Source: Acinetobacter sp. WCHA55
Lineage (GTDB): Bacteria; Pseudomonadota; Gammaproteobacteria; Pseudomonadales; Moraxellaceae
Length of the DNA stretch: 64,000 nucleotides
Reading direction: 5' to 3'
Assembly: GCF_002165305.2 (NCBI RefSeq)
Contig: NZ_CP032286.1
Location: 1-64,000 of the forward strand
Below, piece by piece: positions 34,264 through 53,776 of this stretch. Position numbers and translations under genes: made by a program. The notes below the pieces were generated by a model. It saw only the letters and a program-made list of their open reading frames with translations. It did not search any database and was not told where the DNA came from. Each line of letters begins with the position of its first letter. Position 1 is the first letter of the stretch.

Positions 34264-36909
34264 ATGAAAATTAACAAAAAGAAATTTTCTGCTCTGTCAT
34301 TTTTATTTTTTTTTTCATTAGAAGCACATGCATTTCCACAACCGGGAAGCTATATTTCTAACGTTGCATCTGGGGACTATACCGATGAGATGGGGAATGT
34401 TTTATTGGTCAATTCCAATCCTGTGGCATTGGAAGTGCAAAAAACGTACTCACTGACTTTAGTACAAAATCAAAACCAATATGGTGTGGTCGGTGGGGCT
34501 GTGAATCTGCCACATGTGTTAACCAATACAGGTAATACTGCTGATCGATATACATTGGGGCTAGTGCAAAGTAGCACGGATAATTTTGATTTAAGTAATG
34601 TGAAGGTCTATGCAGACCGCGATCAAAATGGTTTACCAGATAATACTGAAGACTTATTGGTGGGATCAATTGAGCTCAATGCGGGTCAATCTTTAGCAGT
34701 CGTGATTGTAGGCAGTATCCCGACCAATGTCTCTTTTAATCAGCTCAGTAGTTTAGATCTCAAAGCTGTAAGCCAGCAAAATACGACACTTTCTGCACAA
34801 GTCACAGATACGATTCGCGTTGTAGATGATGCTGTGATTTCTCTCGTTAAAGCGCAAAGTGCAAGTGAAGGTAATATTGGTGACCTGATCACCTATACTT
34901 TGACCTATCGGAATACAGGGACAGCAACACGTCGTGTTGTGCTGCAAGATGTATTGGATGATTCTTTAGAATATGTATCTGGGTCAGCAGTTTGGAATCA
35001 AAATAGCACAGCACTCACCGATGCAAATGATACAGAAGGATCTGCCAATACAGGAATTGCCTACCAGCTTAAACCTGATGGGAAGAGTCTAGAAGCCAGT
35101 ATTACAGCTGTTGCACCGCTCACATCAGGCACATTGGCTTTTAAAGCCAAAGTGAAACAAGGTGCTGCCAATAAAATTCCAAACACGGCAGGTTTTGTAC
35201 AATATGACATGGATAATACCACGGTAAAACTGAGCAGTTTCTCCAATACCGTGATCTACAGTTTGGCTGCTGTCTATGGGGTGGTTTTAAATAATAAATC
35301 CAGTTCAGCAGCGAACGTTGGTAACCCGAATAACAGTCCTGATAACTTGGTGATTCAAGCCAGTTTGAAACCAGGGCAAGAAGTTTTCTTTAATAACTAT
35401 GTTTGGAACGTTGGTAATACCACAGATACTTATAATTTAAGTTATAGCTCAAACAATTTGCCTAGCTGTGTCAAAGTTAATTTTTACACGCAGGATGGAA
35501 AAACATTATTTACGGATACCAATGGTGACGGTAAAGTCGATACAGGCTCGATTTCAAATGCTGCGGTAAAACAAATTCAGGTTGGGGTATCAGCCTCTAC
35601 AGGCTGTACCAGCAGTGTCAGCAATATCAATATTGATGTGGTTGCAACATCCATTGCTTCAAGTACAGCCTCTGACCCGATTCGTAACCAAATTACAGCT
35701 TTAGCCGCTGCATCTAGCAGTAGTGATTTATATAATGCTGACCAATCTGGTTTAGGTGTGGGGATTGTGGATAACGCCGGTCAACCATTACGTACAGTTA
35801 AAGTTACTTCGGGAAAAGCGGTTTTTCCTTTGGTGGCAAAGAATAATTCAACTCAAGCCAACAACTATAATTTGTATGCATCCTTTAGCGCGATCGATGT
35901 AGCCAATATTGCACTTACCGCTAAAACGGGTTTTAGCGTCAAATTTTATGAAGGTGATGCAAGCTGTCAAACGGTGGGTAAGCAAATTACCAATACGGGA
36001 ACCTTAGGCGCTGGAGCAAGCAAGAGCTATTGTGCGGTGATTGAGGTTGACGCCAGTCAACAGAATTTTACAGCACCGATTTGGTTTGCGATTCAATCAC
36101 CTGTTAATCAACAAGCGGACTCGATTAAGAACCAAATTGAAAGTAATGTCGCACGTTTACTCACTCTGACCAATGATCAGCAGGGACAGGTAAGTGTGGG
36201 CGGCACAATTGTCTATGCACATACTTTAAAGAATTTGGGCAATATGGCAGAAGGCGCAAATGCAGGTTCTCAGGTTAATCTAAAAGTTGTACCACTGAAA
36301 AATGATGGCTTTGTCTATACCCTTTATTATGATGCGAATAAAAATGGTCAGATTGATAGTGCAGACCAAATTATTAGCGCAACCACCAGTTTAAATCAGC
36401 TTTTGGGTAGTGCAGGTTTAGTGGCTCAGGCTGATATTCAGTTGTTACTCAAAGTTCAAGCAGCACCTTCGGCAACAGAAGGGGTGGTGAGTCAGGCAGA
36501 TATCGTGGTTGAAGTGTCAGACTTTAACGGCATTCATTTAGATAACTTAAAAAATACAGATGTGACCACGGTTGCAACGGGGCATTTACAGTTAGTTAAA
36601 ACACAAGCAGCGAATAGTAGCTGTACCACCACTAATTTAGCAGCTCTGAGCTATTCCACCCAATTGGTTTCGGTCAAGCCAAATCAATGTGTGGTGTATA
36701 AGCTGACCCTTAAAAATGATGGTAGTTCGGTGGTGAAGAATGTGCAATTTAATGATGTTGTTCCAGCTTATACCAGCCTAGTAGGAACGCCTGTCATTGT
36801 TCCGTCAGGTACAAATTTATCTTCTGGTGACAAAGTTTCTGCTTTGGTGAGTAGTTTAGATCCAAGCCAAGAAGCCAATTTCTACTTTGTTATTCGTGTT
36901 AACCCTTAA
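34264..36909 (+). CDS. Large exported DUF11-repeat protein, paralogue 1
   Basis: This 881-aa secreted protein has a signal peptide ending EAHA. The mature N-terminus carries the head motif YISNVASGDY...NSNPV. Modules, by my reading: an Ig-like unit with calcium loop DRDQNGLPDN (about 48-175), a DUF11 repeat (about 190-330, GDLITYTLTYRNTGT), a unit with DTNGDGKVD (about 335-490), a cysteine-paired unit (about 510-610), a unit starting DQQGQVSVGGTIVYAHTL with DANKNGQIDSAD (about 640-760), and a final DUF11-like unit ending FYFVIRVNP. There is no sorting signal, C-terminal anchor or catalytic motif. A frame extension to TTG 34240 is rejected. It is the first gene of operon 1; the next gene is 15 bp away. 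Presumed surface or fibre protein. Confidence 0.82.
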   Translation: MKINKKKFSALSFLFFFSLEAHAFPQPGSYISNVASGDYTDEMGNVLLVNSNPVALEVQKTYSLTLVQNQNQYGVVGGAVNLPHVLTNTGNTADRYTLGLVQSSTDNFDLSNVKVYADRDQNGLPDNTEDLLVGSIELNAGQSLAVVIVGSIPTNVSFNQLSSLDLKAVSQQNTTLSAQVTDTIRVVDDAVISLVKAQSASEGNIGDLITYTLTYRNTGTATRRVVLQDVLDDSLEYVSGSAVWNQNSTALTDANDTEGSANTGIAYQLKPDGKSLEASITAVAPLTSGTLAFKAKVKQGAANKIPNTAGFVQYDMDNTTVKLSSFSNTVIYSLAAVYGVVLNNKSSSAANVGNPNNSPDNLVIQASLKPGQEVFFNNYVWNVGNTTDTYNLSYSSNNLPSCVKVNFYTQDGKTLFTDTNGDGKVDTGSISNAAVKQIQVGVSASTGCTSSVSNINIDVVATSIASSTASDPIRNQITALAAASSSSDLYNADQSGLGVGIVDNAGQPLRTVKVTSGKAVFPLVAKNNSTQANNYNLYASFSAIDVANIALTAKTGFSVKFYEGDASCQTVGKQITNTGTLGAGASKSYCAVIEVDASQQNFTAPIWFAIQSPVNQQADSIKNQIESNVARLLTLTNDQQGQVSVGGTIVYAHTLKNLGNMAEGANAGSQVNLKVVPLKNDGFVYTLYYDANKNGQIDSADQIISATTSLNQLLGSAGLVAQADIQLLLKVQAAPSATEGVVSQADIVVEVSDFNGIHLDNLKNTDVTTVATGHLQLVKTQAANSSCTTTNLAALSYSTQLVSVKPNQCVVYKLTLKNDGSSVVKNVQFNDVVPAYTSLVGTPVIVPSGTNLSSGDKVSALVSSLDPSQEANFYFVIRVNP

Positions 36910-36924
36910 GAGTAGGCTCGGAAA

Positions 36925-39582
36925 ATGTTTGCAGAAAAGAAAATCATTCGAAATATGCGTATTGCCATGCTGAGCTTATTGGGGGCAACAGCATCGACTT
37001 GGGTTTTTGCTGATGCGCTGGTCATCAGTAACATGGCGGTGGGTGAATACAAAGAAGAAGGTTCTACTGTGGTTCAAGTGGCACGTTCCAATTTGGTTCA
37101 AACCACTGTTATTCCTGTGTATAACCTCAGTTTGAAAGATAACCGAACGGAATATGTACGTCCGGGGCAGGCTGTTTACTATCATCATGTTTTAACTAAT
37201 ACAGGGAACGAACGCGATCTTTATAACTTGGTGAGCAGTCAAATTGCAGGGGGCAGTTTTAACCATAGTAATATTGAAATTTATTTAGATGCCGATCGAA
37301 ATGGTGTCGCTGATAGTAATACTCCAATTAGCCAATATGGCTTAAATGCTGGAGAGACAGTTGCACTGATTATTAAAGCCATCATCCCTTCAACAGCAGC
37401 CGTAAATAGCACCAGTCAGATTCAACTCACAGCGACCTCTACACAACAGCCGAGCCTGACTCAAAATAATATTGATACATCTCGCATCACGGATCAGGCA
37501 GTTTTAAACTTAACCAAAAGTTTTGATAAAACAATTGTAGTAAATGGGGATATCGCAACAGTCCGTTTAACCTATTTTAATAACGGCAATACCAGTGGTG
37601 TAGTGAATATCAGCGACCTGCTAGATACCACACAGTTGACCTATGTGACGGGAAATGAAAACTGGAATGGGCAAGCACTCAATGCTGCATCAAATAATGA
37701 TGACCCGACAGGAATAAACTATTATCTGGATGCGGATGGTAAAACCATTCGTGCACAAATCACCAATGTGCCTGCGAATGCACAAGGTTATATTGAGTTC
37801 CGTGTTCGCGTGGCACGTACTGCACCAGGTGAGATCCCCAACTTTGCCAATATGGACTATGACCATGATGGGTTGTCTACTACAGCAAATTTAACCACGC
37901 AGTCAAACACCGCAGTATTAAACATTAAACCGATTTATGGGGTGGTGATTAATGCGGATGTAAATAGTGTGAGTGGTGCAGACTTACTGACTAAATCTGC
38001 TGTAAGTAGTGGTGGTACAGTTAGCTTTGAAAACTATGTCTGGAACACTGGAACAGCGGCAGATCGGTTCAATTTAAGTTTTGCTAGCCATAATTTACCG
38101 ACAGGGAGTGTGCTGGAGTTCTATCGTGCAGATGGTGTTACGCCATTATTTGATAGCAATAATGACGGGATTGTTGATACGGGAACGCTAGATGCTGGTG
38201 CTAAGCTTCCGATAATTGTGAAAATTACGTTCCCACCAGACTATATTGATACAGCCAATACCACATATAACATTGTGCCTAAAGCACAGTCGATAACAGA
38301 CAATACCAAAACAGATACGGTACAAGATCGGACCTCATTGATACAAAATGCGGCCTCTCGCTTAGTGGACTTGATCAATAGCCCTGAAACCACAGCAAAT
38401 GGGACAGGAAATGGCAATGTGTCGAATGGCAGTTCGCCGTGGAAAACCTTGGCGGGGGTGAATAACCAAACGGTGGTGTTCCCGCTTACGGTACGCCATA
38501 CGGGTCAAGCGACGAGTTATAACTTTAGTGCTGATGCTGATAACAATTTTGCGACGGTTGCTTTGCCAAGCGATGTTAGTTCTGTGCGCTATTTTGCTTC
38601 ATCAACCATAGACTGCTCGGTACTTGGAGCAGAAATTACTTCAACGCGGTTATTGAATAATGGGGAGTCTCAGCTTTATTGTGCGGTTGTGGAAATTCGA
38701 GCAGACGCAAAAAGCACAACTCAGCCGATTCCAATTTATTTTAAAGTGGCTTCTTCTAGTTTGCCTACCTCAGCACCAAACAATGGCTATGATGTAATTC
38801 AAAATGCCATTACGATTAACTCGAATGCGAGTCAAGGTGGTGTGAGTTTAGAACCTGATTTGCGTGGGCAAATCGCACCAGGTGGCAGTATTGTGTATAC
38901 CCACACATTAAAGCCGTGGGGAACATCTGCATTGTCCGCAACGGATAATTTCAGTGTTGCCAATGATCGAATTGGCTTTACCACAACCCTTTATTATGAT
39001 GCCAATAACGATGGGCAGTTAGATGCGTCCGATCCGATCATTCAAAATTTATCGGTTGTGAGTGCTGCAATTCTCAGCAGTAAAGCACAGCTTCGTATCT
39101 TTAATAAAGTGGAAAATACCGCGTATAACACTGTTGGAGTCGTGAATACTTCCATCATTAGCCTAAAAAATAGTGCTGGTACGATATTGGATACGGCAAC
39201 AGATATTACAACCATAACCAGTGCACCAGTCCGTTTGAGCAAGTTACAAGCCAAAGATAATAATTGCGATGGTGTCGCGGATACGGCGTATACCTCAAAT
39301 GTGTTACCGATTACACGTAATGCAGATGGTTCGGGGCAATGTGTTTTGTACCAATTGACAGTGAAGAACTTGGGGGCTTCGGCCATTGGGCGATTTAATT
39401 TTTATGATTACACGCCTGAGGCGATGGTGATGAGTAAAGCGCCAAGTTGTACAACGTGTGAAGTGGGTTCATTAACTGCACCAGCACTTGGACAGTCGGG
39501 TGCAATTAAGGGTTCAGTTGCTGCAATAAAAAGCAATGAAAGTCATAGCTTAGAGTTTGGGGTGAAATATGTGGGGAACTAA
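36925..39582 (+). CDS. Large exported DUF11-repeat protein, paralogue 2
   Basis: This 885-aa protein has the same module order as the preceding gene: head motif VISNMAVGEY...RSNLV, calcium loop DADRNGVADSN, DUF11 repeat, loop DSNNDGIVDTG, cysteine-paired unit (IDCSVLG...LYCAVVEI), the RGQIAPGGSIVYTHTL unit with DANNDGQLDASD, and a C-terminal unit with cysteines (NNCDGVAD...GQCVLYQL) ending LEFGVKYVGN. The signal peptide is MRIAMLSLLGATASTWVFA, after a short polar N-extension from the ATG at 36925. A product of tandem duplication with divergence. It ends 4 bp before the next start, so it is firmly co-transcribed. Cell-surface location and fibre role are inferred. Confidence 0.82.
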   Translation: MFAEKKIIRNMRIAMLSLLGATASTWVFADALVISNMAVGEYKEEGSTVVQVARSNLVQTTVIPVYNLSLKDNRTEYVRPGQAVYYHHVLTNTGNERDLYNLVSSQIAGGSFNHSNIEIYLDADRNGVADSNTPISQYGLNAGETVALIIKAIIPSTAAVNSTSQIQLTATSTQQPSLTQNNIDTSRITDQAVLNLTKSFDKTIVVNGDIATVRLTYFNNGNTSGVVNISDLLDTTQLTYVTGNENWNGQALNAASNNDDPTGINYYLDADGKTIRAQITNVPANAQGYIEFRVRVARTAPGEIPNFANMDYDHDGLSTTANLTTQSNTAVLNIKPIYGVVINADVNSVSGADLLTKSAVSSGGTVSFENYVWNTGTAADRFNLSFASHNLPTGSVLEFYRADGVTPLFDSNNDGIVDTGTLDAGAKLPIIVKITFPPDYIDTANTTYNIVPKAQSITDNTKTDTVQDRTSLIQNAASRLVDLINSPETTANGTGNGNVSNGSSPWKTLAGVNNQTVVFPLTVRHTGQATSYNFSADADNNFATVALPSDVSSVRYFASSTIDCSVLGAEITSTRLLNNGESQLYCAVVEIRADAKSTTQPIPIYFKVASSSLPTSAPNNGYDVIQNAITINSNASQGGVSLEPDLRGQIAPGGSIVYTHTLKPWGTSALSATDNFSVANDRIGFTTTLYYDANNDGQLDASDPIIQNLSVVSAAILSSKAQLRIFNKVENTAYNTVGVVNTSIISLKNSAGTILDTATDITTITSAPVRLSKLQAKDNNCDGVADTAYTSNVLPITRNADGSGQCVLYQLTVKNLGASAIGRFNFYDYTPEAMVMSKAPSCTTCEVGSLTAPALGQSGAIKGSVAAIKSNESHSLEFGVKYVGN

Positions 39583-39586
39583 GTCA

Positions 39587-42500
39587 ATGAAGCGCATTAT
39601 TGCATTCTCAGCAAGTCTAGGTTTGGGGCTGATATTAAATTCGGTAGCAATTGCTGCTGTACCCACTTTGGAGATATCTTCTGCAAGTGGTACGGCTGGA
39701 ACGGGGCCAACCACAGCGTCTCAAACAAATACATATTTATTTAATGCTGATAACCCAACGGCAAATACCTTTAGTCAAAGCTACTTTCCTAAAACAACAG
39801 TGACATACACACTTGAAAATCAGCAGTATCCAAATGGAAATAATAGCGGTCTCTTTTTTGGTGATAATACAGGTACAGCAGCTGAAAGAAGTATTTTTAT
39901 TCCTATAGGTGATCAAGGTGCTCCCCGAGACAATGATTTTACCTCAAGTCGTCTAAATCCTTCTATGGGGACAGGAATTAGCATTACGAATAATTACGGC
40001 ACACGTGTTGTTTTAAACTCGAGCATATTGGCAAGTAATGTTAGTCGAGTTACAAGTGGATTGGGAGTTTACTTTGGTGACGTAGTCGTAAATTTTAATA
40101 GACCAGTTAAAAATCCAGTCATTAATTTATCAGGCATGGGGGGAACTTTTGGTGGAGTTGGTATTACTGCTAATTTTAGGTTATCAAGTGCTCCATCTGG
40201 TACAACGATCAGACTACTTTCAGGAAGAAATTTAGTTATTTCTGGAAGTGATATCCGAAATAATGCAGGTAGTTATGGAGCAACAACGGGCAGTGGTGGT
40301 GCCAGTGGAAGTGTGCAAGTTGAAAATTCGAATACGATAACATCATTAAGGTTCGGGGTTTATCTTGCTTCTGATGCAAGTTCTGGGGTTGGTTGGGGGA
40401 GTTCTGGCGATGCTTTTGTTTTTAGTGCAGCTAGCGTTGACTCTATGGTTGGCGATTTGGTTGTTTCTAAAACGAATAATGTAACCCAAGTCTATTCAGG
40501 TGGGACAACCACTTATACCGTACGTGTCTCGAATAACGGCCCTGACACTTATACTGGAACATTACTTAAGGATGTGGTCGGTACAGGATTAACGGCGATA
40601 GCTGTATCTTGTAGTACAGTTGCCAATAATAAATGTACTACAGCTCCAGCTTTAAGCAGTTTGGCTTCTATTGACACAGGGAGTTTAGCCTCTGGCGAAT
40701 TCTACGAAATTTTAGTTACAGCACGTGTGGATGCTACAGTGGGCAGTACTGTGTCAAATACAGCGACAGTAGAAGTGCCTACATTAGGTTCCTCTACAGG
40801 AGCTAGTTGTACGGCTTTAAATAGTGGAGGTATTACACGTTCATTTAACCAAACCACTGGTGCTTGCACAACAACAGATCAAGACACGGTATTGGCATCG
40901 GCAGATTTGGAAGTCTCGAAAACTTCTGATAAAACGATATACAATACAGGTGATGTCGTGAAATATACGATTAAGGCTTGGAATAATGGTGGTGTTGCGG
41001 TTACCGATGCAACATTAACGGATTTAGTTCCTACAAATATTTCGAGTTTAAGTTGGACATGTGCCAAATATGGGACGGCAGTATGCCCAACAACTGCAAA
41101 TATGGTGACTTCAGAAAGCAGCAACAGTCTCAGCGCAACTGGGTTAAACCTTCCTGCCAATGGAAAAGATGTCAATTATTTAGAGTTCATTATAACGGGC
41201 CTAGCTTATAAAGCAGGTTCAGTTGCCAATACTGCATCTATTTCTACTAGTGTTTTTGATCGAAACTCTGCTAATAATAGTGCCACAGCAAACATGACGA
41301 TTACACAGAATACGCCAATTACTACTGGAAGTTCGCAAAATCAGTGTTCAGCGAGTCAAGCGGTAAATCTTGTTTCTGATATGACTTTTAGAAAATATGA
41401 TGCCGACAATACTTTGGCAGCTTTTGATAATAATTTAAAAACAGCGGGGAGTAGTCCAACAGTACTTCCGAATAGCGTCATGTATGGCACGGGAGCAAAT
41501 GGTGCTTTGCAAGTGCGAGGGCGGCTGAGTTGGTCCTATGGTTACCCGCGCAGTAACACAACAGGGGCGACCATTCGTGTCTTGGTAGATGGAATAGCTT
41601 ATGCTGTGCTGATTACTCCAGGTAAAAGTTCAAATACAACAGCGTCATTCAATTCCTTAAATGGTGCTCAAGTTTCACAATCAGATTATTCATTAACTTC
41701 ATATCAAACAGATCCAGGAAGTATTAATTTTACGATTACACTACCTACTTCTGTAACGAGTATCAAAGTTGTACGTACCGAATTCCAGAGTTATGCGGGT
41801 TCGGGTGTAGCAGGTGATGATATTGGTATTGGTTTAAATGACGTGAATGCGTGTTTAAAGCCAACGTTCCAAATGAACAAAGTATCTGAAAATGGCACCG
41901 ATAGCTTTAACTTTAACGCGTTCTCAAATTTGACAAATAACAACGCTGAAACCATTACTAGCGGTGAAGTGGTCACGACGGTTATTGGTGCTGCGCAATC
42001 TGTGCGTTTGAAAACCAGTACATCGCTTATAGAGCAAGGTGCAACAGTAGTTTACGCAATACCAAACACCGCGATTAGCTTTACTGAGTCTGCTTCAACT
42101 TTATATTCTCTTAAAAGCATTGAATGCACAGATACTAATGCTTCAATTTCAGGGAACGGCACGGGGAATTTGGGTGGTGTAAATGGTATGACTCAAACCA
42201 TTCCTGCAGCCAATGTGAAATTTGCATCCAAGCTTGTATGCCGCGTAACGAATAGTAAAAAAGCCGGCTATGTATTCTCTGGACGAGTCTTTAATGATAA
42301 CGGTGGTACATCTTCAGATATTTCAAAGGCATATAACGGAAGCGTAGATGTTGGTGAACTAGGTATTGCTGGCAGTGTAGTTGAACTCCAAGATTGTTCA
42401 ACTCAGGCAGTCTTAGCATCGGCAACATCCAATGCTAATGGTGATTTTAGAATACAGACTTTACAGGATGTCTTCTCTGGGCGCAGTAATGTCTGTCTCG

Positions 42501-43372: not shown

Positions 43373-43390
43373 TTAATTTTTGATATGGCA

Positions 43391-43425
43391 AACCCCTTCT
43401 GGGATTTACAAGAAGGGGTTTTTTA
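43391..43425 (+). terminator. Terminator of DUF11 operon 1
   Basis: The perfect 10-bp stem AACCCCTTCT/AGAAGGGGTT with a 10-nt loop and a T-run lies 18 bp after the third gene, so the cluster is two transcription units. Confidence 0.93.
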
Positions 43426-43874
43426 TTGCTCATTTTTATAAATGGGAGATGTAGTTTTTTTATGTATTTACTTGAAAAATATATTAAATGATAAGCGTGG
43501 ATTGAATAATTTAAAGACAGTTATAGTCCCTATTTTTCCCAGATAGTTCTCTCAGAAAAATAACATTTAGGACTTTTAAAGAGCATTAAAATTTTTTTTA
43601 GGAATTATCATTTTTGGTAGTTTTTACAAATGTTTCATTATGTAATTTTAACTTAAGTTTAAAATATATTATATATCAGCATCTTAATTTATTTTGTGTG
43701 ATTTATTGTATCTAATGAAAATCACCTAAGGTGAACTAGTTAACATTTTTTTTAAATAATGTATGGTTGTTTGTGTGATTTTTGTTTAATATTGCTTTGA
43801 GATTTGTTGCATTAATTTATAAAAAAGTGATTAGTGTCACAAAAAAATCGCATTGGTTCGCAGTGGATAAAATC
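43426..43874 (+). promoter_or_regulatory. Long AT-rich leader/promoter region of DUF11 operon 2
   Basis: About 450 bp with no gene and a very high A+T content. A possible promoter is TTGAGA (43797-43802) with TATAAA (43818-43823) at a short 15-bp spacing. Such AT-rich upstream regions are common targets of H-NS-type silencing; that is inference. Confidence 0.4.
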
Positions 43875-44369: not shown

Positions 44370-44415
44370 TTTCTAAATTTTACACACATCATTCCGATGG
44401 AGTCGGGGGACTTTC

Positions 44416-47118
44416 ATGTCTATGAATTTGAAAACAACAAAGCGAAATAACCTTTATTTGTCAATTGCGACAGTCTTAGGTGGGTTTGCTTTCTTTGCTA
44501 CAGGCACCACATATGCGGCTGCGCCAGCTGCAGGTACGAATATTAGTAACATTGCAACAGCATCGTATGTGGATGGTACGTCGACTACACGTACTGTCAC
44601 TTCGAATGAAGTCAAAACGACTGTTTTACAAGTGGGCAGTTTCACACTTGAACAAGACCGTAGTGCGACTGCGAATCCGAACGGTGTAGTGACCCTATCA
44701 CACGTCTTGACCAATACGGGTAATGGAACAGATAAGTTCACATTAAGTTTGGCAAACATCGCTGGTGATGCATTTGATTTCTCAAATATTGCGATTTATT
44801 TAGATGCGAACAAAGACGGTGTGCCTGATAACAACACCAATTTAATGGGACAAGTTATTACTTTAAATGCGGGTGAGTCTGCAGGTTTAGTTGTTGTGGG
44901 TACAACGGCATCAACAGCTCAGGCAAATGACTTGGGTAAATTGACTTTATCAGCAGAGAGTACGTTCATCGGTTCAAGTGATATCAAAGTTAACACGGAT
45001 ACAGTGAAAATCGTGGGCGGCGCAGTGATTCAAGTCACGAAATCTGCCAATGTTACTGCTGTAACTCGTGGTGATACGGTGACTTATGAGTTGACCTATA
45101 AAAATACAGGTAATGCTGACGCAACAAATTTAACCATTGAAGATATCCTGCCAGCAGGTGTGACGTACGTTGCGGGGTCTGCGCGTTGGAGTGGTCAAAC
45201 AGCGGCATTGACAGATGCTACTGGTGACGAAACAGCAGCGAAGTACGAATTTACCAATGGTAAAGCGCAGTTGGTATTGGCATCAGTACCACGTAACAGC
45301 ACAGGAAAATTAACTTTCCAAGTAACAGTCAACGCAAGCGCACCAGCCGGTAAAATTACCAACATTGCAACATTTGACCCGGATGGTCCAGGTACAGAAA
45401 GTCCTCAACCTACTAACCCGTATGATGTCACAGTTCAGTCGACTTATATTGGTACGATCAATGATTTAGCAACAGACCCTTACTCAGATGCTGAAGTCGC
45501 GGGTTCTAAAGATGACTTAATCTCTACCACTGCTGTTCAAGGTTCACCTATCTTATTTGGTGCTTCAAGCTCAACTGAAGATATTTGGATTCATAACCTA
45601 GGTAATGTGACTGAGACATATAACATTAAAGTCGATAAATCTAAGTTACCAGCAGGTTCTATTGTTGAATTGTTAAAGTCGGATGGTAATACACCATTAA
45701 CGGATACCAATGGTGACGCAAGTGTAGATAGTGGTCCATTGGCTTCTGGTGGTCATCTTGAAATTTCTGCACGTATTACTTTGCCAAATGGGTATACAGG
45801 GCCGATTACAGCTCCTGGCCTAGATACGATCTTAACCATTACACCTGTACATGGAACTCTATCAGATAAGATCACTTTACGTATTACTGACATCACTACT
45901 TCTAAAGTCGATTTGAGTAATGGTAAGGGTAATAAAGACTATATAGAGAATGATACTGCACTTACAGGTGAAGGCGCATATGTTGCGGCTAATATTGTAA
46001 CGACAGTAACGACTAAACCTGGTGTTGCAGGGACATTCCCGATAGCTGTGACCAATGGTGGTTCAACTGCAGACAACTATAACTTTGGTACAGATCAACC
46101 ATTACCATCAGGTTGGACCGTTGAGTACTTTGTTGCTGACGCAACTGGTGTGTGTTCTTCAACTAAAGTGACCAACACAGGTGCAATTCAGCCAAATGCA
46201 ACGGCTTATTTCTGTGCAAAAGTGACGCCTTCTGCAAATGCAACGCCTGCAAATAGCCAAGATATTGTCTTCACGATTAATTCTCCTGCAACTGGCTTAA
46301 CTGACAAGATGAAAGATCGTCTTGTTGTAGAAGCTGTTCGTGGACTGTCGTTCTTAGCTGATCAACAAGGTCAGGTCGCTCCAGGCGGTACGATTGTTTA
46401 TAAGCATACTTTGACCAACAACGGTAACGTTGTAGAAGGTGTGACAGGGGGAAGTACACTTCCATTTGCAATCACGCATGACCCATCAAATAGTGGCTTT
46501 GTAACCTCAGTTTATGTGGACAAAAACAATAATGGTGTTGCTGACGCGAATGAGTTGGTTACTGGCACTGATCTTAATGCGTGGCTAACAGCGACGAATG
46601 GTGAAGATGGTCTTTCGCCAAATGAAAGTGTAAGTATCTTGGTGAAGGTTGAAGCTCCTAGTAATGCAACTGCAGGTCAGGCCGATCTATCTATTGTAAC
46701 CATCACTCCGACAGGTGACTTGAACAGTATTGCTGCCCCAGCTGCTGTCACTGTAACTGATAAAACTACAGTGAACATTGGTCAAGTCCGTTTGGAAAAA
46801 TTACAAGCGCTAGACGCTGATTGTAATGGCGCTGAAGAAGGGAACTTCGGAACATCGACGCTTCAAGCAAAACCAGGTGCTTGTATCATTTACCAAATTA
46901 AGGCGGTAAATGATGGTAACCAAGCAGTAACTAAAGTTGTGATCACGGATGCTGTGCCAAGTTATACCACTTTAGGTACAACACCAGCAGCTGCACTAGA
47001 TCCTGCATCAAAAGGTACGGTATCGAATACAGCAAACAATTTGAAATCAACTGAGTTTGCTTTAGCACCTTCTGAAACGGTCACAATGAAGTTCAGCGTT
47101 AAGGTCGATGGACAATAA
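44416..47118 (+). CDS. Large exported DUF11-repeat protein, paralogue 3 (likely major subunit)
   Basis: This 900-aa protein is colinear with the two large operon-1 paralogues: signal peptide to about TYA, head motif NISNIATASY...TSNEV, loop DANKDGVPDNN, DUF11 repeat (GDTVTYELTYKNTGN...YVAGSARW), loop DTNGDASVDSG, cysteine unit (VCSSTKV...YFCAKV), DQQGQVAPGGTIVYKHTL with DKNNNGVADANE, and a C-terminal unit ending MKFSVKVDGQ. It is preceded by GGGGGA 5 nt before the ATG. Codon use is more uniform (CGT, GGT, GAA) than in operon 1, suggesting higher expression. A strong hairpin follows before the barrel gene, a layout like that of pilin operons. Major-subunit status is inferred. Confidence 0.82.
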   Translation: MSMNLKTTKRNNLYLSIATVLGGFAFFATGTTYAAAPAAGTNISNIATASYVDGTSTTRTVTSNEVKTTVLQVGSFTLEQDRSATANPNGVVTLSHVLTNTGNGTDKFTLSLANIAGDAFDFSNIAIYLDANKDGVPDNNTNLMGQVITLNAGESAGLVVVGTTASTAQANDLGKLTLSAESTFIGSSDIKVNTDTVKIVGGAVIQVTKSANVTAVTRGDTVTYELTYKNTGNADATNLTIEDILPAGVTYVAGSARWSGQTAALTDATGDETAAKYEFTNGKAQLVLASVPRNSTGKLTFQVTVNASAPAGKITNIATFDPDGPGTESPQPTNPYDVTVQSTYIGTINDLATDPYSDAEVAGSKDDLISTTAVQGSPILFGASSSTEDIWIHNLGNVTETYNIKVDKSKLPAGSIVELLKSDGNTPLTDTNGDASVDSGPLASGGHLEISARITLPNGYTGPITAPGLDTILTITPVHGTLSDKITLRITDITTSKVDLSNGKGNKDYIENDTALTGEGAYVAANIVTTVTTKPGVAGTFPIAVTNGGSTADNYNFGTDQPLPSGWTVEYFVADATGVCSSTKVTNTGAIQPNATAYFCAKVTPSANATPANSQDIVFTINSPATGLTDKMKDRLVVEAVRGLSFLADQQGQVAPGGTIVYKHTLTNNGNVVEGVTGGSTLPFAITHDPSNSGFVTSVYVDKNNNGVADANELVTGTDLNAWLTATNGEDGLSPNESVSILVKVEAPSNATAGQADLSIVTITPTGDLNSIAAPAAVTVTDKTTVNIGQVRLEKLQALDADCNGAEEGNFGTSTLQAKPGACIIYQIKAVNDGNQAVTKVVITDAVPSYTTLGTTPAAALDPASKGTVSNTANNLKSTEFALAPSETVTMKFSVKVDGQ

Positions 47119-47148
47119 TTAAGTCATAACATTAATAACTATTTTTGT

Positions 47149-47175
47149 GGATAGGCATTGTCAAAATGCCTATCC
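47149..47175 (+). other. Perfect mRNA hairpin between major DUF11 gene and barrel gene
   Basis: The arms GGATAGGCATT and AATGCCTATCC form an 11-bp perfect stem with loop GTCAA and no T-run after it. It sits 30 bp after the 900-aa gene and 35 bp before the 2004-aa gene. It could cap and stabilise the upstream message or cause partial termination, giving unequal expression. Confidence 0.65.
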
Positions 47176-47210
47176 CTTAACCTTGTTTTACTTGGTATTG
47201 GGGTATTTTC

Positions 47211-50200
47211 GTGATTAAACGAGTTCAGCCGCTATATAATCATAAGATCAAGCTCATTTTCTCAAGCTTAGCAACCGCTATGGCTTTGGTAAATCATGCT
47301 TATGCTATGATGCCTGCTGCTGGGCAAAATATCACCAATACTGCATATGCAAGTTTTGTACAAAAGGACGGTTTGATTGGTCAGGCCGTTTCCAATACTG
47401 TTCAAGTCACGATTAATCCCTTATATGTCATTAGTTTAACTTCACCAGCTCGTCAGGAAATTAATGCGGGTGCAAAAGTTATTTGGTTAAACACTTTAAC
47501 CAATCACAGTAATACACAAGCCGATATTGCAATTGATAAAAATTCGGTTCCAGAATTATCCAATATAAAAATTTATGTCGACAGTAATCAAAATGGCGAG
47601 TTTGATCGTTCAGACTTATTGGTGACAGGGCATTTGAGTTTAGAAAGTGGTCAAAAAGTTGACCTATGGGTCATCGCTGATTCATCGAGCTCTTTAAATG
47701 ATAGTCAACAAGTTGATTTACCACTTCGTGCATATGTTATTCAAGATCCAGCAGCTATTGCAGATGCTGTTAATGGCTTAATTAGTTTTTTACCTCAGTT
47801 AACGGCAACCAAAGCTGTCGATAAAAGTAGTTTCGAACCAAAAGCTGGTCAGTCTTACGATTTAACTTATACCTTAAACGTAAAAAATACATCTACGCGT
47901 AATTCGGGTACTAAGCCAATTGAAGTGGATGGTCAAACCATTAATGCTGTGGTGTTATTGGACGAGTTACCAGCCAATACTACGTTTAAATCAGCAAAAG
48001 CAACTAACTCAAAAGCTTTAGTGCTATACCCATTAGGTCAAGATAAATTTACCCAGCAGATCCCGAACGATAAATCACTTATTAATACTTTAGTGGTGGC
48101 TTATCCGCAAGCGTTAGCAGCCAATGCGACTGAAACGGTCGAACTGGTTGTGACGATGAACTCGAATATTAACCATACTTCGGTTTCCAATGTGTTTAGT
48201 GTAGAGCACGGCCTAGTCTCAAATATTAAAAAGACGCTGTCGAATGAAGTGGTCACCACGGTGGGTGGGCGCTCTTCCATCACGAATAACAGCAAAGATT
48301 ATTCTAATATTTTAGCGACTGGCAGTTTAACTAAGCCGTTGTATATTGCTGCAAATAGCGCCATGTGTAATGCCACGCGCAGCAGTGTAGATAAAGTTAA
48401 AATCAAAGTTCAATCGATGAAAACCGGTGATATTGAATATGTACAGGGTGTTGAAACAGGCATCAACACAGGCATATTCCGTTTTTCATTACCTACGCAG
48501 GAGTCTGCGACAGCAAAACAGAATGATCAAATTCTACAAACGATTAAGCGCGATCAAGTGGTTGTTAGCTTAACGGATTGCTTGGATGAAAATGGGAACT
48601 CCACAACCAGTATCAGTGATGTGGACACCAATGTACTCATTGATCCATATGGCGTGGTTTTTGATGCCAAAACCAATCAACCTGTTGCGGGTGCAACCGT
48701 GACGCTATTGGATGCCAATGGTAAACCTGCTGAAAATGTTGCTTATAAACTAGATGAAACCACAGGGGACAAAGTTGTTATTCCTGCAAAGCAGGTCACC
48801 AATAGTGATGGTGAGTTTATTTACCCTTATGTCGAAAACGGTACTTATAGCTTATATATCGACACCTCTACGATTGCAGGTGGAACCCGCTATAAATTTA
48901 CCAGTGATAAAACCATTTATAATAATTTTGATCAGCGTGTGGTTGATGCGTCATGGTCTTATGGCGGAAACTTCACTTTAAAAACAGGTGATGCTGCACT
49001 TAATATTGATATCCCAATCGACCCAGTTGATATTGTGACGCCAATCAATGACAAATTGGTCATTAAAAAAGAAGTGGTGGGCGATAAAACAGCTGAGATT
49101 GGTGACTTTAAAGATTATATGGTGACGGTTGCCAATATGGGTGATTCAACACTGTATGACGTCAATATGAAAGATACTTTGCCACGTGGCTTTGTGTATG
49201 TGTCAGGCACTACACGGGTCAATGGTCAAAAGAGTAACGACCCTCAGGGTGGCAAAGGTCCTTATTTAACTTTAGGCTTAGGGACACTGACACCGAAACA
49301 AGAAGCGAAAGTTCAATACCGTGTGTATGTCGGGCCAAATGCTTTAAGTGGCGATGGGATTAACCGCGTTTATGCGCAGGACAATAAAAATACCACATCA
49401 AATGAAGCGCAAGCGGCAGTCAAAGTGACACCGGGAGTATTTAGTCCAGATGGTTTTGTGGTGGGTAAAGTCTTTACCGACTGTAACCGCAATGGGGTAC
49501 AAGATGCAGGTGAGCTGGGCGTACCAGGCGTTCGTATTTACATGGAAGATGGGAACTTTGTGGTCACTGACCGTGAAGGGAAATATAACTTCTATGGCAT
49601 TAAACCCATTACGCATGTGCTAAAAGTTGACAATACTACTTTACCAAATAATGCCGAATTGGTACTGATTAGTAACCGTCAAGCGGGTGATCCAGCCAGC
49701 CGATTTGTGGACCTAAAACGTGGTGAATTGCACCGTGCCGATTTCGCGATTGCAGATACCGCAGGCGAATGTAGTCAAGCTTTGGCCACACAAATTGATG
49801 CACGCCGTAGTAAAATAGATGCGCAACTGGATGCACTTGAACAAACCTTACGTCAGGACTTAACGGTAGATCCACTGAGCAGTTATGTGACTGATGTTCA
49901 AGGTCAGCCAGCAAGTGGTTGTATTAGTGCTTCAGGGGCTTCGGCAAACTGTAATATTGAATATAAAAAAGAACAGATTAAAGAGGTTAAAACGGTTCAA
50001 GTTGAACCCGTTAAAACACCAACGATATTAGATTTAGAACAGGAACTACAACGTTCTGAGTCGAACCAACTTGCAATTTTGAACTTAAATGAACAGCAAG
50101 TACTACCTGCTCAACAAGCAACCATTCAGGTGAAAGGTGCTTTAGGAACTGACATCCGTTTATTTGTGAATGATGAGCAAATTTCTGAAAAACGTATTGG

Positions 50201-53200
50201 TAAAAAAGCAGCTTATCAGGAGCATGGTGTTGCAGGTTTAGACTTTATTGGTGTGCCGTTGCTTGCAGGTAAAAATACAGTCGCAGTTCGCCAGTACGAC
50301 AGCTTTGGCAATTTACGTGACCAACAGCAAGTGACAGTGATCGCACCTGATGCGATGAGTCAATTGGCTACGCAGCCTGTTGAACAAGTGGTGTATGCCA
50401 ATGGCAAAGACGTTTATCAAGTTGTTGTTAAGGTGCTTGACCGTAATGGTACGGCTGTTGCAACACGTACCCCTATCACGATAGAAACATCGGTGGGAAC
50501 GATTCAACTCAAAGATTTAGATCCAGATAAACCGGGTATTCAAGTTTTTGCTGAAGGTGGCTCACTGGTTATCCCAGTTCTTGCACCATTAGAAGCGGGT
50601 TCAGGTGTGCTACGTATTCGTAGTGGTATTTATGAGCAGACTGTTCCAGTTCACTTTTTAGCAGAATTACGACCAATGTTGGTTGCGGGGATTATCGAAG
50701 GTTCATTTGCATTGAACAAATTTGACCCAAAAAATTTATCGCAAAGCTCAACACAAGATGGCTTCGAAGAAGAACTGAATGATTTGTCCAGTTCAGGCGA
50801 TGGTGAAACTGCGATTCGTGGTCGTGCAGCCTTGTTCCTGAAAGGCAAGGTACGTGGGGATTATTTACTGACTTTGGCTTATGACTCAAGTAAAGAAAAT
50901 AATCAGCGTCTATTCCGTGATATTCGCCCAGATGAATATTACCCCGTGTATGGTGATGCATCGGCAAAAGGGTTTGATGCGCAGTCCACCAGTAAACTGT
51001 ATGTACGCGTGGATAAGGGCCGTTCTTATGCCATGTATGGGGACTATGTTACACGTACTGAAAATGACGAAGGGCTTTCATTGGGGCAATACAGCCGTTC
51101 ATTGACAGGTCTAAAGTCAACTGTTGAAGGGGATCGTTACCAAGTTTCGGGCTTCGCAGCACGAACCAATGCAACGCAAATCGTGAATGAATTACGTGCA
51201 ATGGGGGTTTCTGGCCCATATTCTTTAGGTATCGATACTGACGATATTTTAGAAAATAGTGAAAAGGTGGAAGTGATTGTTCGTGATCGTAACAATCCAG
51301 GTTTGATTATTGCGCAGCGTACTTTAAATCGCTTCAGCGACTACCAAGTAGATACCTATACCAACAGTATTTACCTGACCTCACCATTGAGCAGTATTGA
51401 TGAAAACCTGAATCCTGTTTATCTACGGATTACGGTAGAGTCGGATCAAGGGGGACAGGAATATACCGTTGCTGGTGTGAATGGCCGTTATAAGCTCAAT
51501 GATAAAGTGACAGTGGGTGGTTCTTATGTGCAAAATGATGATCCAATGGATCAAGAGAAAATTGCCAGTGCTAATACCGTCATTCATTGGAACGATAAGA
51601 CCAAACTGATTGCAGAATATGCATATTCTGACCACGATGCCCTGAACCTTGACCAATTGACTGATGTGAATGCATCAAATAGTACAGACACCTCGGGTGA
51701 TGGCACAGCAGCACGTGTTGAATTGGAATACAAAAATGACAAGGTCGATTTACGTGCTTACCATCAACAAGCAGATGAAGGTTTCCGTAATGCAGCGTCT
51801 TCAATCAGTTCAGGGCGCAAAGAAAGTGCAGTCAAACTGAATGCACGTTTAGATCAGTTTGGTATTTTACGTGTTGAAGCGGTCAGAACTGAAGATAGCG
51901 TGAATGAAGGTGTTCGCCATGGCGTGAGCGCTTCGATTGAGAAAGCGATTAACCGTATTGTAAGTTTAGAGCTGGGTGCACGTTATTATAATGAGTCAGC
52001 CAATGCAGCCAGTGCTTCCACCCAGAATGTTGAAACGCCATATGATGGCACCACTGTGCGCGCTAAATTAAAAACTGCACTTCCTTTTGATGGTTCAAGT
52101 GCTTTCCTTGAATATGAACAAGACATCGCGGATAGTGACCGCCGTGTATTTGCTGTAGGTGGTGATGCACAAGTTTATAAAAATATTCATGCCTATGCGC
52201 GCCATGAGTTCATTTCAAGTATAGGCGGATTATATGAGCTGAACGACACGCAAAAACGTAATACGACCGTTTTTGGTTTAGACAGTGAATATATGCGTGA
52301 TGGTTCAGTGTTTAGTGAATACCGTGTACGTGATGGTATGAGTGCTCGTGAAGCTGAAGCCGCGATGGGTGTGCGTAACCGTTGGCAACTTAAAGAGGGT
52401 CTATTCTTTAATACCAGTTTTGAAAAAGTAAAAGTCTTTGAAGGTGAAAATAAAGATTCACTAGAGTCCACTGCTGCGACTTTGGGCTTTGAACACCTTT
52501 CCAATCCACGTTGGAAAAATGTGGCACGTATAGAAGGGCGCTGGTCTAATCAAAGTGATAGCTATTTAAATACTTTAGGTACAGCGTACAAGTATTCAGA
52601 CGAAGTGACTTTATTGGCTAAAAATGTCTTGAATATTACGGACAATAAGTCTGCAGATTCTGGTGATCGCGTGATTGACCGTGTTCAGCTCGGTGCAGCA
52701 TATCGTGATTTGGCAACCAATCGTTTTGACTCCTTGAGCAAAATTGAATATCGCTACGAGAAAAATGAAACAAGTCTGAATGATCCATATGAGCGCAATG
52801 TTTACATCATGTCTCATCATATGAATTATCATCCAACACGTTCGGTACATGTATCAGGGCAATATGCGGTTAAATATTTGGATGAAACCTATGATTTATT
52901 GCAAACCAGTGGTATGACTCAAATGCTCAACAGCCGTTTTATGTACGACATTAATGAGCGTTGGGATGCAGGGGTGAATGCTGGCGTGATGTGGAACAGT
53001 GTTTCGGATGGAACCAAGTTGATGGCAGGGGTTGAAGTGGGTTATCTACTAGCCTCAAACCTTTGGGTTTCAGGTGGATATAACTTTGTAGGTTATCAAG
53101 ATAAAGATCTGATCGATAGTGATACAACGATGGATGGTGCATATTTCCGTTTCCGCTTCAAATTTGACGAAAACTTATTTAACAAAAATAAGCCTTCAGT

Positions 53201-53225
53201 CAATAAAGCCTTGGAGCCTAAATAA
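47211..53225 (+). CDS. 2004-aa outer-membrane barrel protein with DUF11, carboxypeptidase-regulatory-like and SdrD-B-like domains
   Basis: Signal peptide about 1-32, then the same head motif as the repeat proteins (NITNTAYASF...VSNTV) and loop DSNQNGEFDRSD. By my reading: DUF11-like region (about 190-350), carboxypeptidase-regulatory-like unit (GVVFDAKTNQPVAGATVTLL, near 482), DUF11 repeat (near 620), SdrD-B-like unit (GKVFTDCNRNGVQDAGE, near 755), a short coiled coil (about 855-885), then Ig-like domains (AGKNTVAVRQYDSFGN near 1020). From about 1150 to the end alternating beta-strands with aromatic girdles (motif RPDEYYPVYGDAS near 1238) and a last strand GAYFRFRFKFDENLF indicate a large outer-membrane barrel. 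The start is GTG. I infer an export or anchoring platform for the repeat proteins. Confidence 0.8.
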   Translation: MIKRVQPLYNHKIKLIFSSLATAMALVNHAYAMMPAAGQNITNTAYASFVQKDGLIGQAVSNTVQVTINPLYVISLTSPARQEINAGAKVIWLNTLTNHSNTQADIAIDKNSVPELSNIKIYVDSNQNGEFDRSDLLVTGHLSLESGQKVDLWVIADSSSSLNDSQQVDLPLRAYVIQDPAAIADAVNGLISFLPQLTATKAVDKSSFEPKAGQSYDLTYTLNVKNTSTRNSGTKPIEVDGQTINAVVLLDELPANTTFKSAKATNSKALVLYPLGQDKFTQQIPNDKSLINTLVVAYPQALAANATETVELVVTMNSNINHTSVSNVFSVEHGLVSNIKKTLSNEVVTTVGGRSSITNNSKDYSNILATGSLTKPLYIAANSAMCNATRSSVDKVKIKVQSMKTGDIEYVQGVETGINTGIFRFSLPTQESATAKQNDQILQTIKRDQVVVSLTDCLDENGNSTTSISDVDTNVLIDPYGVVFDAKTNQPVAGATVTLLDANGKPAENVAYKLDETTGDKVVIPAKQVTNSDGEFIYPYVENGTYSLYIDTSTIAGGTRYKFTSDKTIYNNFDQRVVDASWSYGGNFTLKTGDAALNIDIPIDPVDIVTPINDKLVIKKEVVGDKTAEIGDFKDYMVTVANMGDSTLYDVNMKDTLPRGFVYVSGTTRVNGQKSNDPQGGKGPYLTLGLGTLTPKQEAKVQYRVYVGPNALSGDGINRVYAQDNKNTTSNEAQAAVKVTPGVFSPDGFVVGKVFTDCNRNGVQDAGELGVPGVRIYMEDGNFVVTDREGKYNFYGIKPITHVLKVDNTTLPNNAELVLISNRQAGDPASRFVDLKRGELHRADFAIADTAGECSQALATQIDARRSKIDAQLDALEQTLRQDLTVDPLSSYVTDVQGQPASGCISASGASANCNIEYKKEQIKEVKTVQVEPVKTPTILDLEQELQRSESNQLAILNLNEQQVLPAQQATIQVKGALGTDIRLFVNDEQISEKRIGKKAAYQEHGVAGLDFIGVPLLAGKNTVAVRQYDSFGNLRDQQQVTVIAPDAMSQLATQPVEQVVYANGKDVYQVVVKVLDRNGTAVATRTPITIETSVGTIQLKDLDPDKPGIQVFAEGGSLVIPVLAPLEAGSGVLRIRSGIYEQTVPVHFLAELRPMLVAGIIEGSFALNKFDPKNLSQSSTQDGFEEELNDLSSSGDGETAIRGRAALFLKGKVRGDYLLTLAYDSSKENNQRLFRDIRPDEYYPVYGDASAKGFDAQSTSKLYVRVDKGRSYAMYGDYVTRTENDEGLSLGQYSRSLTGLKSTVEGDRYQVSGFAARTNATQIVNELRAMGVSGPYSLGIDTDDILENSEKVEVIVRDRNNPGLIIAQRTLNRFSDYQVDTYTNSIYLTSPLSSIDENLNPVYLRITVESDQGGQEYTVAGVNGRYKLNDKVTVGGSYVQNDDPMDQEKIASANTVIHWNDKTKLIAEYAYSDHDALNLDQLTDVNASNSTDTSGDGTAARVELEYKNDKVDLRAYHQQADEGFRNAASSISSGRKESAVKLNARLDQFGILRVEAVRTEDSVNEGVRHGVSASIEKAINRIVSLELGARYYNESANAASASTQNVETPYDGTTVRAKLKTALPFDGSSAFLEYEQDIADSDRRVFAVGGDAQVYKNIHAYARHEFISSIGGLYELNDTQKRNTTVFGLDSEYMRDGSVFSEYRVRDGMSAREAEAAMGVRNRWQLKEGLFFNTSFEKVKVFEGENKDSLESTAATLGFEHLSNPRWKNVARIEGRWSNQSDSYLNTLGTAYKYSDEVTLLAKNVLNITDNKSADSGDRVIDRVQLGAAYRDLATNRFDSLSKIEYRYEKNETSLNDPYERNVYIMSHHMNYHPTRSVHVSGQYAVKYLDETYDLLQTSGMTQMLNSRFMYDINERWDAGVNAGVMWNSVSDGTKLMAGVEVGYLLASNLWVSGGYNFVGYQDKDLIDSDTTMDGAYFRFRFKFDENLFNKNKPSVNKALEPK

Positions 53226-53776
53226 TGTTGAAACACCATACTAAACATGTGTTGTCGCTTCTGGCTTTAGGTACTGTAGTGGCGCATGCTACAGAGGGTC
53301 CTGTTAGTTCAAGTTATCGAGTTTCGCAGCAACAGGTGCATGAGCAATTACACACTGCATTTGAGCGAGCGACGGACGTACGGGACAAGTACCAATTAGA
53401 AAAAGCACGAACATGGCTGAGTTATGCTGACCATGAATATAGTGAAAAAGCGAAGCGTCAAAATATTGATCTGATCTATCAGCAGGTCTTAGACATTGTA
53501 TATGCGGATCAGCGTGCAACGTTAAGTGTAGAAACACCAATACTACCGTTTTCCCAACTGATGCGCCGTGACTTATGGACGCGTGTCGCAACCATAAAAA
53601 CACAGACTGGATTTCAGTGTGCTTATAAAGAACTTGCACAAGCTGAAGTGAATTTGGTTTGGGCGGCTGCTGAATACCGTGAATTAGGTTGGCATCATTC
53701 GCGTGAGATTTTTGCTTCAGCAGAACGGTTGATGGATCAAGCCACTTATTTATCTGAAAACTGTGGCACACTTTAA
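53225..53776 (+). CDS. Periplasmic helical protein coupled to the barrel gene
   Basis: This 183-aa precursor has a signal peptide (MLKHHTKHVLSLLALGTVV, cleavage near AHA-T). The mature part is mostly helical: a KARTWLSYADHEYSEKAKRQ segment and a second long helix near AAAEYRELGWHHSREIF; two cysteines near 133 and 180 may pair. Its ATG overlaps the stop codon of the barrel gene by one base (TAATG), a sign of translational coupling and fixed stoichiometry. I do not recognise the family securely; the KAxxWLxxAxxEY start recalls N-terminal modules of some OmpA-like envelope proteins. Probably an accessory or plug partner of the barrel; inference. Confidence 0.72.
   Translation: MLKHHTKHVLSLLALGTVVAHATEGPVSSSYRVSQQQVHEQLHTAFERATDVRDKYQLEKARTWLSYADHEYSEKAKRQNIDLIYQQVLDIVYADQRATLSVETPILPFSQLMRRDLWTRVATIKTQTGFQCAYKELAQAEVNLVWAAAEYRELGWHHSREIFASAERLMDQATYLSENCGTL

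Follow-up and report, generated by a model that had tools for sequence, protein, structure and literature searches.

A putative surface fibre of split, self-linking CLIPPER domains with its own outer-membrane barrel in Acinetobacter and related bacteria

We describe a cluster of seven genes, P1 to P7, that probably encodes a bacterial surface fibre. The cluster lies on the forward strand at positions 34264-53776 of a 64,000-nucleotide stretch of Acinetobacter sp. WCHA55 DNA (contig NZ_CP032286.1, positions 1 to 64,000; hereafter the window). The reading we favour, at a probability of about 0.7, is that the fibre is built head-to-tail through a CLIPPER (DUF11) domain that is split between successive proteins, that the joints are isopeptide bonds formed by the proteins themselves, and that the base of the fibre is fixed to an outer-membrane barrel, P6. 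A broader version, to which we would give even odds, is that the system is a natural Tag/Catcher polymer that needs no enzyme and is widespread in Gammaproteobacteria, with an untagged tip, a barrel bearing only a tag, and P4 as a mostly dead catcher that acts as a chaperone. The original prediction for this DNA had pictured a complete assembly system for a surface fibre or layer. The co-occurrence of P4, P5 and the barrel gene, the roles suggested by the split domain and, to a moderate degree, the barrel itself uphold that picture; a 183-residue protein as constant partner is not supported, and P1-P3 are not universal components.

The central observation is a complementary split of one domain. 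A 145-position profile was made from the intact internal DUF11 domains of P1, P5 and P6 (106 domains in all), and the N-terminal and C-terminal segments of the proteins were scored against it separately. The C-terminal domains never match past profile position 110 (25 sequences each of P1, P2 and P3, 41 of P4 and 40 of P5), and in P1 nothing is matched past model position 106; the C-terminal CLIPPER domains of P1 to P5 end at the protein terminus without their last two strands. The mature N-termini of P1, P2, P5 and P6, directly after the signal peptide, match from profile position 102 or later to about 144 (25/25, 25/25, 40/40 and 41/41 sequences, respectively). What emerges is an incomplete immunoglobulin (Ig)-like domain, here called the acceptor, together with a terminal segment that completes it, the donor hairpin; this is the arrangement expected of donor-strand complementation, recognised here from sequence and with weak scores for single donors.

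The predicted shaft subunits, P1 (34264-36909; 881 residues from its ATG), P2 (36925-39582; 885 residues) and the core subunit P5 (44416-47118; 900 residues), carry both parts. P1 contains Ig-like domains and an intact CLIPPER domain at about residues 192-336, and the intact CLIPPER domain of P5 spans residues 201-341. The donor hairpins are located at 34333-34449 in P1 (residues 24-62, with Asn33 at 34360-34362; 25/25 homologues match about positions 107-144, median 9.2 bits), 37009-37122 in P2 (residues 29-66, Asn36; 25/25 but weak, median 2.7 bits), 44521-44637 in P5 (residues 36-74, Asn45; 40/40) and 47310-47426 in P6 (residues 34-72, Asn43; 41/41). The acceptors lie at 36586-36906 in P1 (a CLIPPER domain that lacks the final two strands; Lys779 and Asp831), 39226-39579 in P2 (Lys773 and Asp828), 43049-43369 in P3 (Lys1159 and Asp1210) and 46783-47115 in P5 (Lys795 and Asp845, each 40/40). 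Six residues of the P5 donor are invariant in 56 sequences (N45, A47, A49, Y51, S63 and N64), as are Lys795 and Asp845 of its acceptor. P3 has an acceptor and no donor, P4 consists of an acceptor domain alone, and the N-termini of these two proteins give scattered near-zero profile scores (above 0 in 5/25 and 24/41 sequences); P6 has a donor and no acceptor.

The split also divides a catalytic triad. In the solved CLIPPER domain 9ifr, Lys715 is paired with Asn806, with Asp748 as the third member (PMC12617251), and these three positions align in the intact domains of P1, P5 and P6. In the terminal domains the triad is distributed over the two chain ends, with Asn on the donor and Lys and Asp on the acceptor. 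The donor Asn is kept in all 131 sequences (P1 25/25, P2 25/25, P5 40/40, P6 41/41). A rebuilt Lys-Asp-Asn triad would probably form an isopeptide bond between subunits. The chemistry is plausible because an engineered split of the related RrgA domain at a similar hairpin (R2Tag/DogTag) reacts spontaneously, according to the available part of PMC8878318. One could suppose instead that hairpin complementation builds the fibre with non-covalent joints and that the conserved triad merely aids packing, much as TasA fibres assemble by donor-strand exchange (PMC9674648, available part). We regard this as unlikely, in view of the invariance of Lys and Asp in the split acceptors of P1, P2, P3 and P5 (115/115 in total, with P1 25/25, P3 25/25 and P5 40/40), whereas Lys is lost in 2/25 intact internal domains of P1 and 1/40 of P5. 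Acceptors other than P4 in the loci read outside Acinetobacter likewise keep Asp in 28/29 cases, with Glu in the remaining one, and Lys on the first strand in 29/29 (by eye), and loss of Asp is mainly confined to P4.

The genes of the core occur as a unit. In a sample of 175 Acinetobacter genomes, the P6 barrel was found in 46, of which 43 have it essentially whole (in G013 across two contigs), two have divergent barrels (G127 and G146) and one has a remnant (G159). P4 is present in 44 genomes (E <= 1e-12) and P5 in the same 44 (E <= 1e-30, a search that also matches P1 and P2); P4, P5 and the barrel are together in 43/175, and the 44th genome with P4 and P5, G155, has a partial P4 and a P5 fragment. 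Of the 42 whole-barrel loci other than that of the window, 40 were fetched (G013 and G066 excluded), and the order P4-P5-P6 is kept in every one. P1-P2-P3 are found upstream in 24 of the 40 and are not in the fetched stretch of the other 16, seven of these stretches being shortened by contig ends; P1/P2-like genes occur elsewhere in the genome in three of the 16 (G180, G123 and G103). P4-P5-P6 form the core of the cluster, and P1-P3 are optional. The expectation that the genes always travel together is thus borne out for P4, P5 and the barrel, which are all-or-none if remnants and divergent barrels are set aside, and fails for P7; P1-P3 are not universal either. Traces of decay were also seen: G155 (contig C37) holds the partial P4 and P5 just mentioned, and G159 (contig C27) a stretch of the barrel gene that covers 40 residues and contains stops, both being cluster remnants; P5 is in two pieces in locus L062 and has only 796 residues in L046.

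The proteins that carry one half of the split domain suggest how the fibre would begin and end. P3 (39587-43372; 1261 residues from an inner ATG or 1267 from the outer one), which has DUF11, SpaA_4 and SdrD_B domains, would be the fibre tip. Its N-terminal region of about 430-760 residues is clade-specific and is not covered by BLAST matches from one clade to another. Of the 16 loci that lack P1-P3 upstream, 11 encode a protein of 958-989 residues with an acceptor end just downstream of the barrel or P7; by eye, Asp is present in each, and a loose donor pattern fits 2/11, which we take as chance. P4 (43875-44369; 164 residues), a single acceptor-type domain, has Leu88 at the position of the catalytic Asp in 41/41 Acinetobacter sequences (an alternative profile alignment gives Leu in 39, Asn in one and a gap in one). 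In 17 loci outside Acinetobacter the position holds Asn in 11, Leu in two, Ile in one, Gly in one and Asp in two, so that the catalytic Asp is gone in 56/58 P4 sequences overall. The Lys position of P4 has no confident placement and no claim is made about it. P4 is probably a chaperone or cap that would bind donors reversibly.

The same distribution of halves bears on whether the partners are separate chains. P1, P2 and P5 each carry donor and acceptor on one chain, and the hairpin might therefore close the C-terminal domain of its own chain, as in a circular permutation, to give monomeric or ring-like surface proteins and no fibre. No donor is recognisable in P3, P4 or the tip candidates encoded downstream, all of which have an acceptor, and the barrel protein has a donor only; for these proteins the partners must be other chains. 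The subunit chain is, in addition, a string of Ig-like domains. We consider closure within one chain the least likely of the alternatives weighed here, and infer that complementation occurs between chains.

P6 (47211-53225; 2004 residues) is composed of the donor hairpin, DUF11, SdrD_B and Ig-like domains, and a predicted outer-membrane barrel at 50988-53222 (about residues 1260-2004), which has approximately 36 long strands and, following the fourth, a patch of short ones. The C-terminal barrel that had been postulated for this protein thus came through moderately well. The structural matches nearest to the barrel part are outer-membrane barrels, including nutrient receptors and porins, and P6 would be the outer-membrane anchor of the fibre base. 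Whether it also exports the subunits is a separate matter. It is a serious possibility, somewhat short of an even chance, that the barrel is an anchor or porin only and that the subunits get to the surface in some other way, which would conflict with our proposal in the export step alone; the nutrient receptors and porins among the structural matches favour it, as does the lack of a sequence relation to ushers. Homology to ushers was considered and rejected. Usher (PF00577) has no match in 30 barrel sequences by Pfam, hhalign and a profile search of solved structures were negative as well, and fold comparison alone hints at an usher. In the search of solved structures, the barrel profile found only 6xi3 (E 0.001) and a ribosomal protein, both judged to be chance or local matches. 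No PapD-like periplasmic chaperone was found among the seven proteins by Pfam.

P7 (53225-53776; 183 residues) aligns to the N-terminal half of OmpA-domain proteins in related loci. The OmpA domain (PF00691) is not detected by Pfam in the P7 of the window or of L081 and is present in the relative at L106. Among the 40 Acinetobacter loci, P7 adjoins the barrel in 30, with a complete OmpA domain in 22 and a shortened form in eight (L110, L113, L112, where only the very end is affected, and the five loci closest to the window); it was not found beside the barrel in the other ten, where a lenient rescan gave nothing convincing. The original prediction had made the 183-residue protein a constant, dedicated partner, and these counts contradict it. 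The absence of the OmpA domain in the clade of the window (L078-L082), and the missing or shortened P7 of other lineages, look as if a tie to peptidoglycan were dispensable.

Relatives of the system are found well beyond Acinetobacter. The barrel was detected in 37/274 Gammaproteobacterial genomes, representing 34/222 genera, and 20 barrel loci were read, followed by 12 more (of 14 stretches). A P4-like gene is present in 17 of the first 20; it is absent at L140 and L141, which are single-chain loci, and at L147, which is on a short contig of a genome that carries P4 on other contigs. The N-terminus of the barrel protein has the donor motif in 17/18 non-fused loci, the match at L154 looking spurious; the donor pattern used for these genera is loose, fitting 13.7% of shuffled N-termini and 2/17 P4 proteins as well. 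Two pattern matches in subunits likewise appear spurious (L156 at 6557 and L157 at 17848). A P4 profile matched 50 of the 274 genomes (E <= 0.001), 25 of them with full-length proteins (E below 1e-30) and the remainder weakly, to domains of larger proteins. The barrel is present in 23 of the 25 genomes with full-length P4; of the other two, G423 has P4 followed by a barrel-type N-terminus at a contig end, and the second is G288. Fourteen genomes have the barrel and no P4: in 11 of them a giant single-chain DUF11 protein is fused to or located beside the barrel, and three are fragmentary (one of these, G389, was left out of the fetched loci). The C-terminus of the giant proteins is not a truncated domain; their 5′ end is out of view in several. 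Because 23/25 P4 genomes have the barrel and 11/14 barrel genomes without P4 are of the single-chain type, P4 accompanies split subunits rather than the barrel as such.

The single-chain loci (L140, L141, L165-L170, L172, L174 and L175) constitute a second architecture of the barrel family, without P4. The two divergent barrels of Acinetobacter have similar neighbours. At L179 (G127), a 2145-residue DUF11/OmpA reading frame that matches both compared segments of 9ifr at 100% identity adjoins the divergent barrel gene, and at L180 (G146) a single-chain DUF11/OmpA adhesin is likewise next to a divergent barrel gene of the P6 family.

A number of results weigh against the proposal. With regard to the donors, single scores are weak (medians of 9.2, 2.7, 10.3 and 10.5 bits for P1, P2, P5 and P6), and a tail-only profile exceeds 3 bits in 23/25 P1, 29/40 P5, 36/41 P6 and 0/25 P2 sequences, with a shuffled maximum of 4.0. 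In profile-profile comparison by hhalign, 7/12 donor comparisons fall on the expected end of the domain, one of them with a probability of 88.6% (the P6 donor against the intact P5 domain, positions 110-149) and six with just 0.4-29%; the other five land elsewhere unsupported, including all four against the P6 domain. The 75 control comparisons, made with 25 segments, included one at 88.8% (P6 300-338 to positions 90-120) and five at 13.7-24.5%; since controls attain comparable probabilities, the hhalign donor scores alone are not decisive. The barrel model is moderate, with a predicted local distance difference test score (pLDDT) of 65 and a predicted template modelling score of 0.42, and hhalign of the barrel against five ushers gives a probability of 0.4%, i.e., no sequence relation. 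Co-occurrence, for its part, is evidence of a unit and not of a mechanism, and 18 of the 25 genomes with P4 had contributed sequences to the query, leaving seven that are independent, five of them with a barrel and a sixth with a barrel-type N-terminus next to P4 where the contig ends. There are also individual exceptions: the barrel protein of L143 lacks the donor motif, the P4-like proteins of L143 and L149, which are variant loci of the split type, retain Asp, and the single-chain locus L165 also encodes a 203-residue protein with an acceptor-like end.

In view of the low single scores, the case for the donors rests on where they lie, on how similar they are to one another and on the Asn. 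In profile-profile comparison, each of the six pairings among donors scores 88.7-97.9%, with the P2 donor at 88.7-94.1% against the others; the acceptors fall within positions 11-111 with probabilities of up to 97.2%. The weak scores could also be understood if the N-terminal motif, a legacy of tandem arrays, only capped the domain that follows and the C-terminus were a natural end, so that the proteins would be separate adhesins with a common exporter. Such arrays do have this motif at the end of one domain, just before the next, and in the P5 monomer model the donor is confidently predicted as strands, with pLDDT blocks of 82-90 from residue 41. Against a cap, several protein families show complementary losses at the two ends, the donor keeps an invariant reactive Asn for which a cap would have no function, and giant single-chain DUF11 relatives by the same barrel family end without a truncated domain. 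We judge the cap very unlikely and retain the split-domain fibre.

Assembly of such a fibre might proceed as follows. The subunits would reach the periplasm through Sec, as their signal peptides suggest, and P4 would hold the donor hairpins reversibly, as a chaperone or cap. P3, with an acceptor only, would lead as the tip, and the N-terminal hairpin of each new subunit (P1, P2 or P5) would complete the C-terminal domain of the subunit ahead, where the rebuilt triad would create a Lys-Asn bond between subunits without a sortase. The N-terminal hairpin of P6 would close the last shaft subunit and so fix the fibre covalently to the barrel, which may also export the subunits. P7, where it has an OmpA domain, could tie the base of the fibre to peptidoglycan.

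The proposed fibre differs from each of the known systems with which we compared it. In relation to chaperone-usher pili (FimA/FimH/FimD type), there is no PapD-like chaperone among the seven proteins and no usher by sequence; moreover, the subunits belong to another domain family, the donor has two strands, the joints are probably covalent, and the barrel itself bears a donor. In Gram-positive sortase pili, too, the shaft is covalent and made of Ig-like domains, and some of these contain isopeptide bonds. Construction of these pili needs a sortase and a C-terminal sorting signal. No sortase or sorting-signal domain was found in the seven proteins with Pfam and NCBIfam, the rest of the genome not having been searched for sortases. 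CLIPPER fibrillar adhesins (9ifr; PMC12617251) share the domain family and the Lys-Asp-Asn triad, but they consist of one long chain with intramolecular bonds, whereas here the domain is divided between proteins. DogTag/DogCatcher, derived from RrgA domain 4, has a similar cut, with Asn on a C-terminal β-hairpin and Lys and the acid on the other piece; as described in the available part of PMC8878318, however, it is man-made and not a natural polymer, and the acid of RrgA is Glu rather than Asp. The nearest natural precedent we found is the archaeal threads of Saci_0406, whose chemistry is different. The accessible portion of PMC9715654 describes subunits chained by donor strands, with a covalent link proposed between them and without a known sortase; the proposed bond connects the N-terminal α-amine to an Asn two subunits away, in cells without an outer membrane, and unlike the bond proposed here does not come from a triad rebuilt inside the complemented domain.

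The CLIPPER domain, the isopeptide bond and donor-strand assembly are each known already. DUF11 domains occur unsplit in a spore-fibre anchor (PMC11952670, available part), and PMC12617251 (available part) cites bonds in phage capsids and, in a helical hairpin, a natural isopeptide bond between molecules (Remaut, Sleutel and Sogues 2025), so that self-formed bonds between chains have precedent. We found neither a split DUF11 fibre nor this barrel family described in the open-licence literature of PubMed Central, which includes few subscription journals. If the mechanism holds, the novelty would lie in a natural split isopeptide polymer joint that has its own barrel and a mostly dead acceptor; more cautiously, the system would be a variant of the donor-strand fibre. 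It would then represent a class of self-welding surface fibre in bacteria, nature's version of the Tag/Catcher pairs of engineers, and could be a source of new orthogonal ligation pairs. It would also explain many DUF11 clusters of Gram-negative bacteria, giving roles to proteins annotated as hypothetical or SdrD B-like, and would tie a family of large outer-membrane barrels to the display of split-subunit fibres as well as single-chain CLIPPER adhesins on the cell surface.

With respect to the organisation of the locus, most of what had been noted from the sequence alone was confirmed. All seven open reading frames are present and each product has a recognisable signal peptide, as judged by eye without a predictor. 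P1-P2-P3 and P4-P5-P6-P7 are probably two transcription units, as had been proposed, because a terminator-like hairpin with a T-run, identified by eye, follows P3 at approximately 43391-43426 on the forward strand; its loop of 10 bases is outside the limits of the terminator scanner, and it is therefore missing from the scanner's list. About 450 bp of AT-rich DNA separates the hairpin from P4. The three repeat proteins described as colinear are indeed so, a P5 search matching P1 at 33% (P5 residues 24-897) and P2 at 34% (residues 28-899). The absence of recognisable secretion machinery likewise stands, since Pfam and NCBIfam give DUF11-type, SpaA_4 and SdrD_B domains and no secretion family for the seven proteins. 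DUF11 (PF01345) is above the Pfam cut-off in P1, P3, P5 and P6 and below it in P4 (20.0 against 24.6), and P2 has no Pfam DUF11 match and 15.7 bits in NCBIfam against a cut-off of 24. The P5 model is a string of Ig-like domains for which Foldseek ranks axonemal and complement proteins first, i.e., a generic chain of this kind, and the structural matches of the P5 CLIPPER domain include RrgB, BcpA and SpaA. A PHROGs search of P4, P6 and P7 gave no match, and Tandem Repeats Finder detected no tandem repeats at the DNA level. Elsewhere in the window are a DNA polymerase III beta subunit gene at 1491-2639, a DUF4256 protein upstream of the cluster at 30796-31359, and two adjoining genes of the IlvD/Edd family (dihydroxy-acid/6-phosphogluconate dehydratase) on the same strand, at 56598-58427 and 58794-60479.

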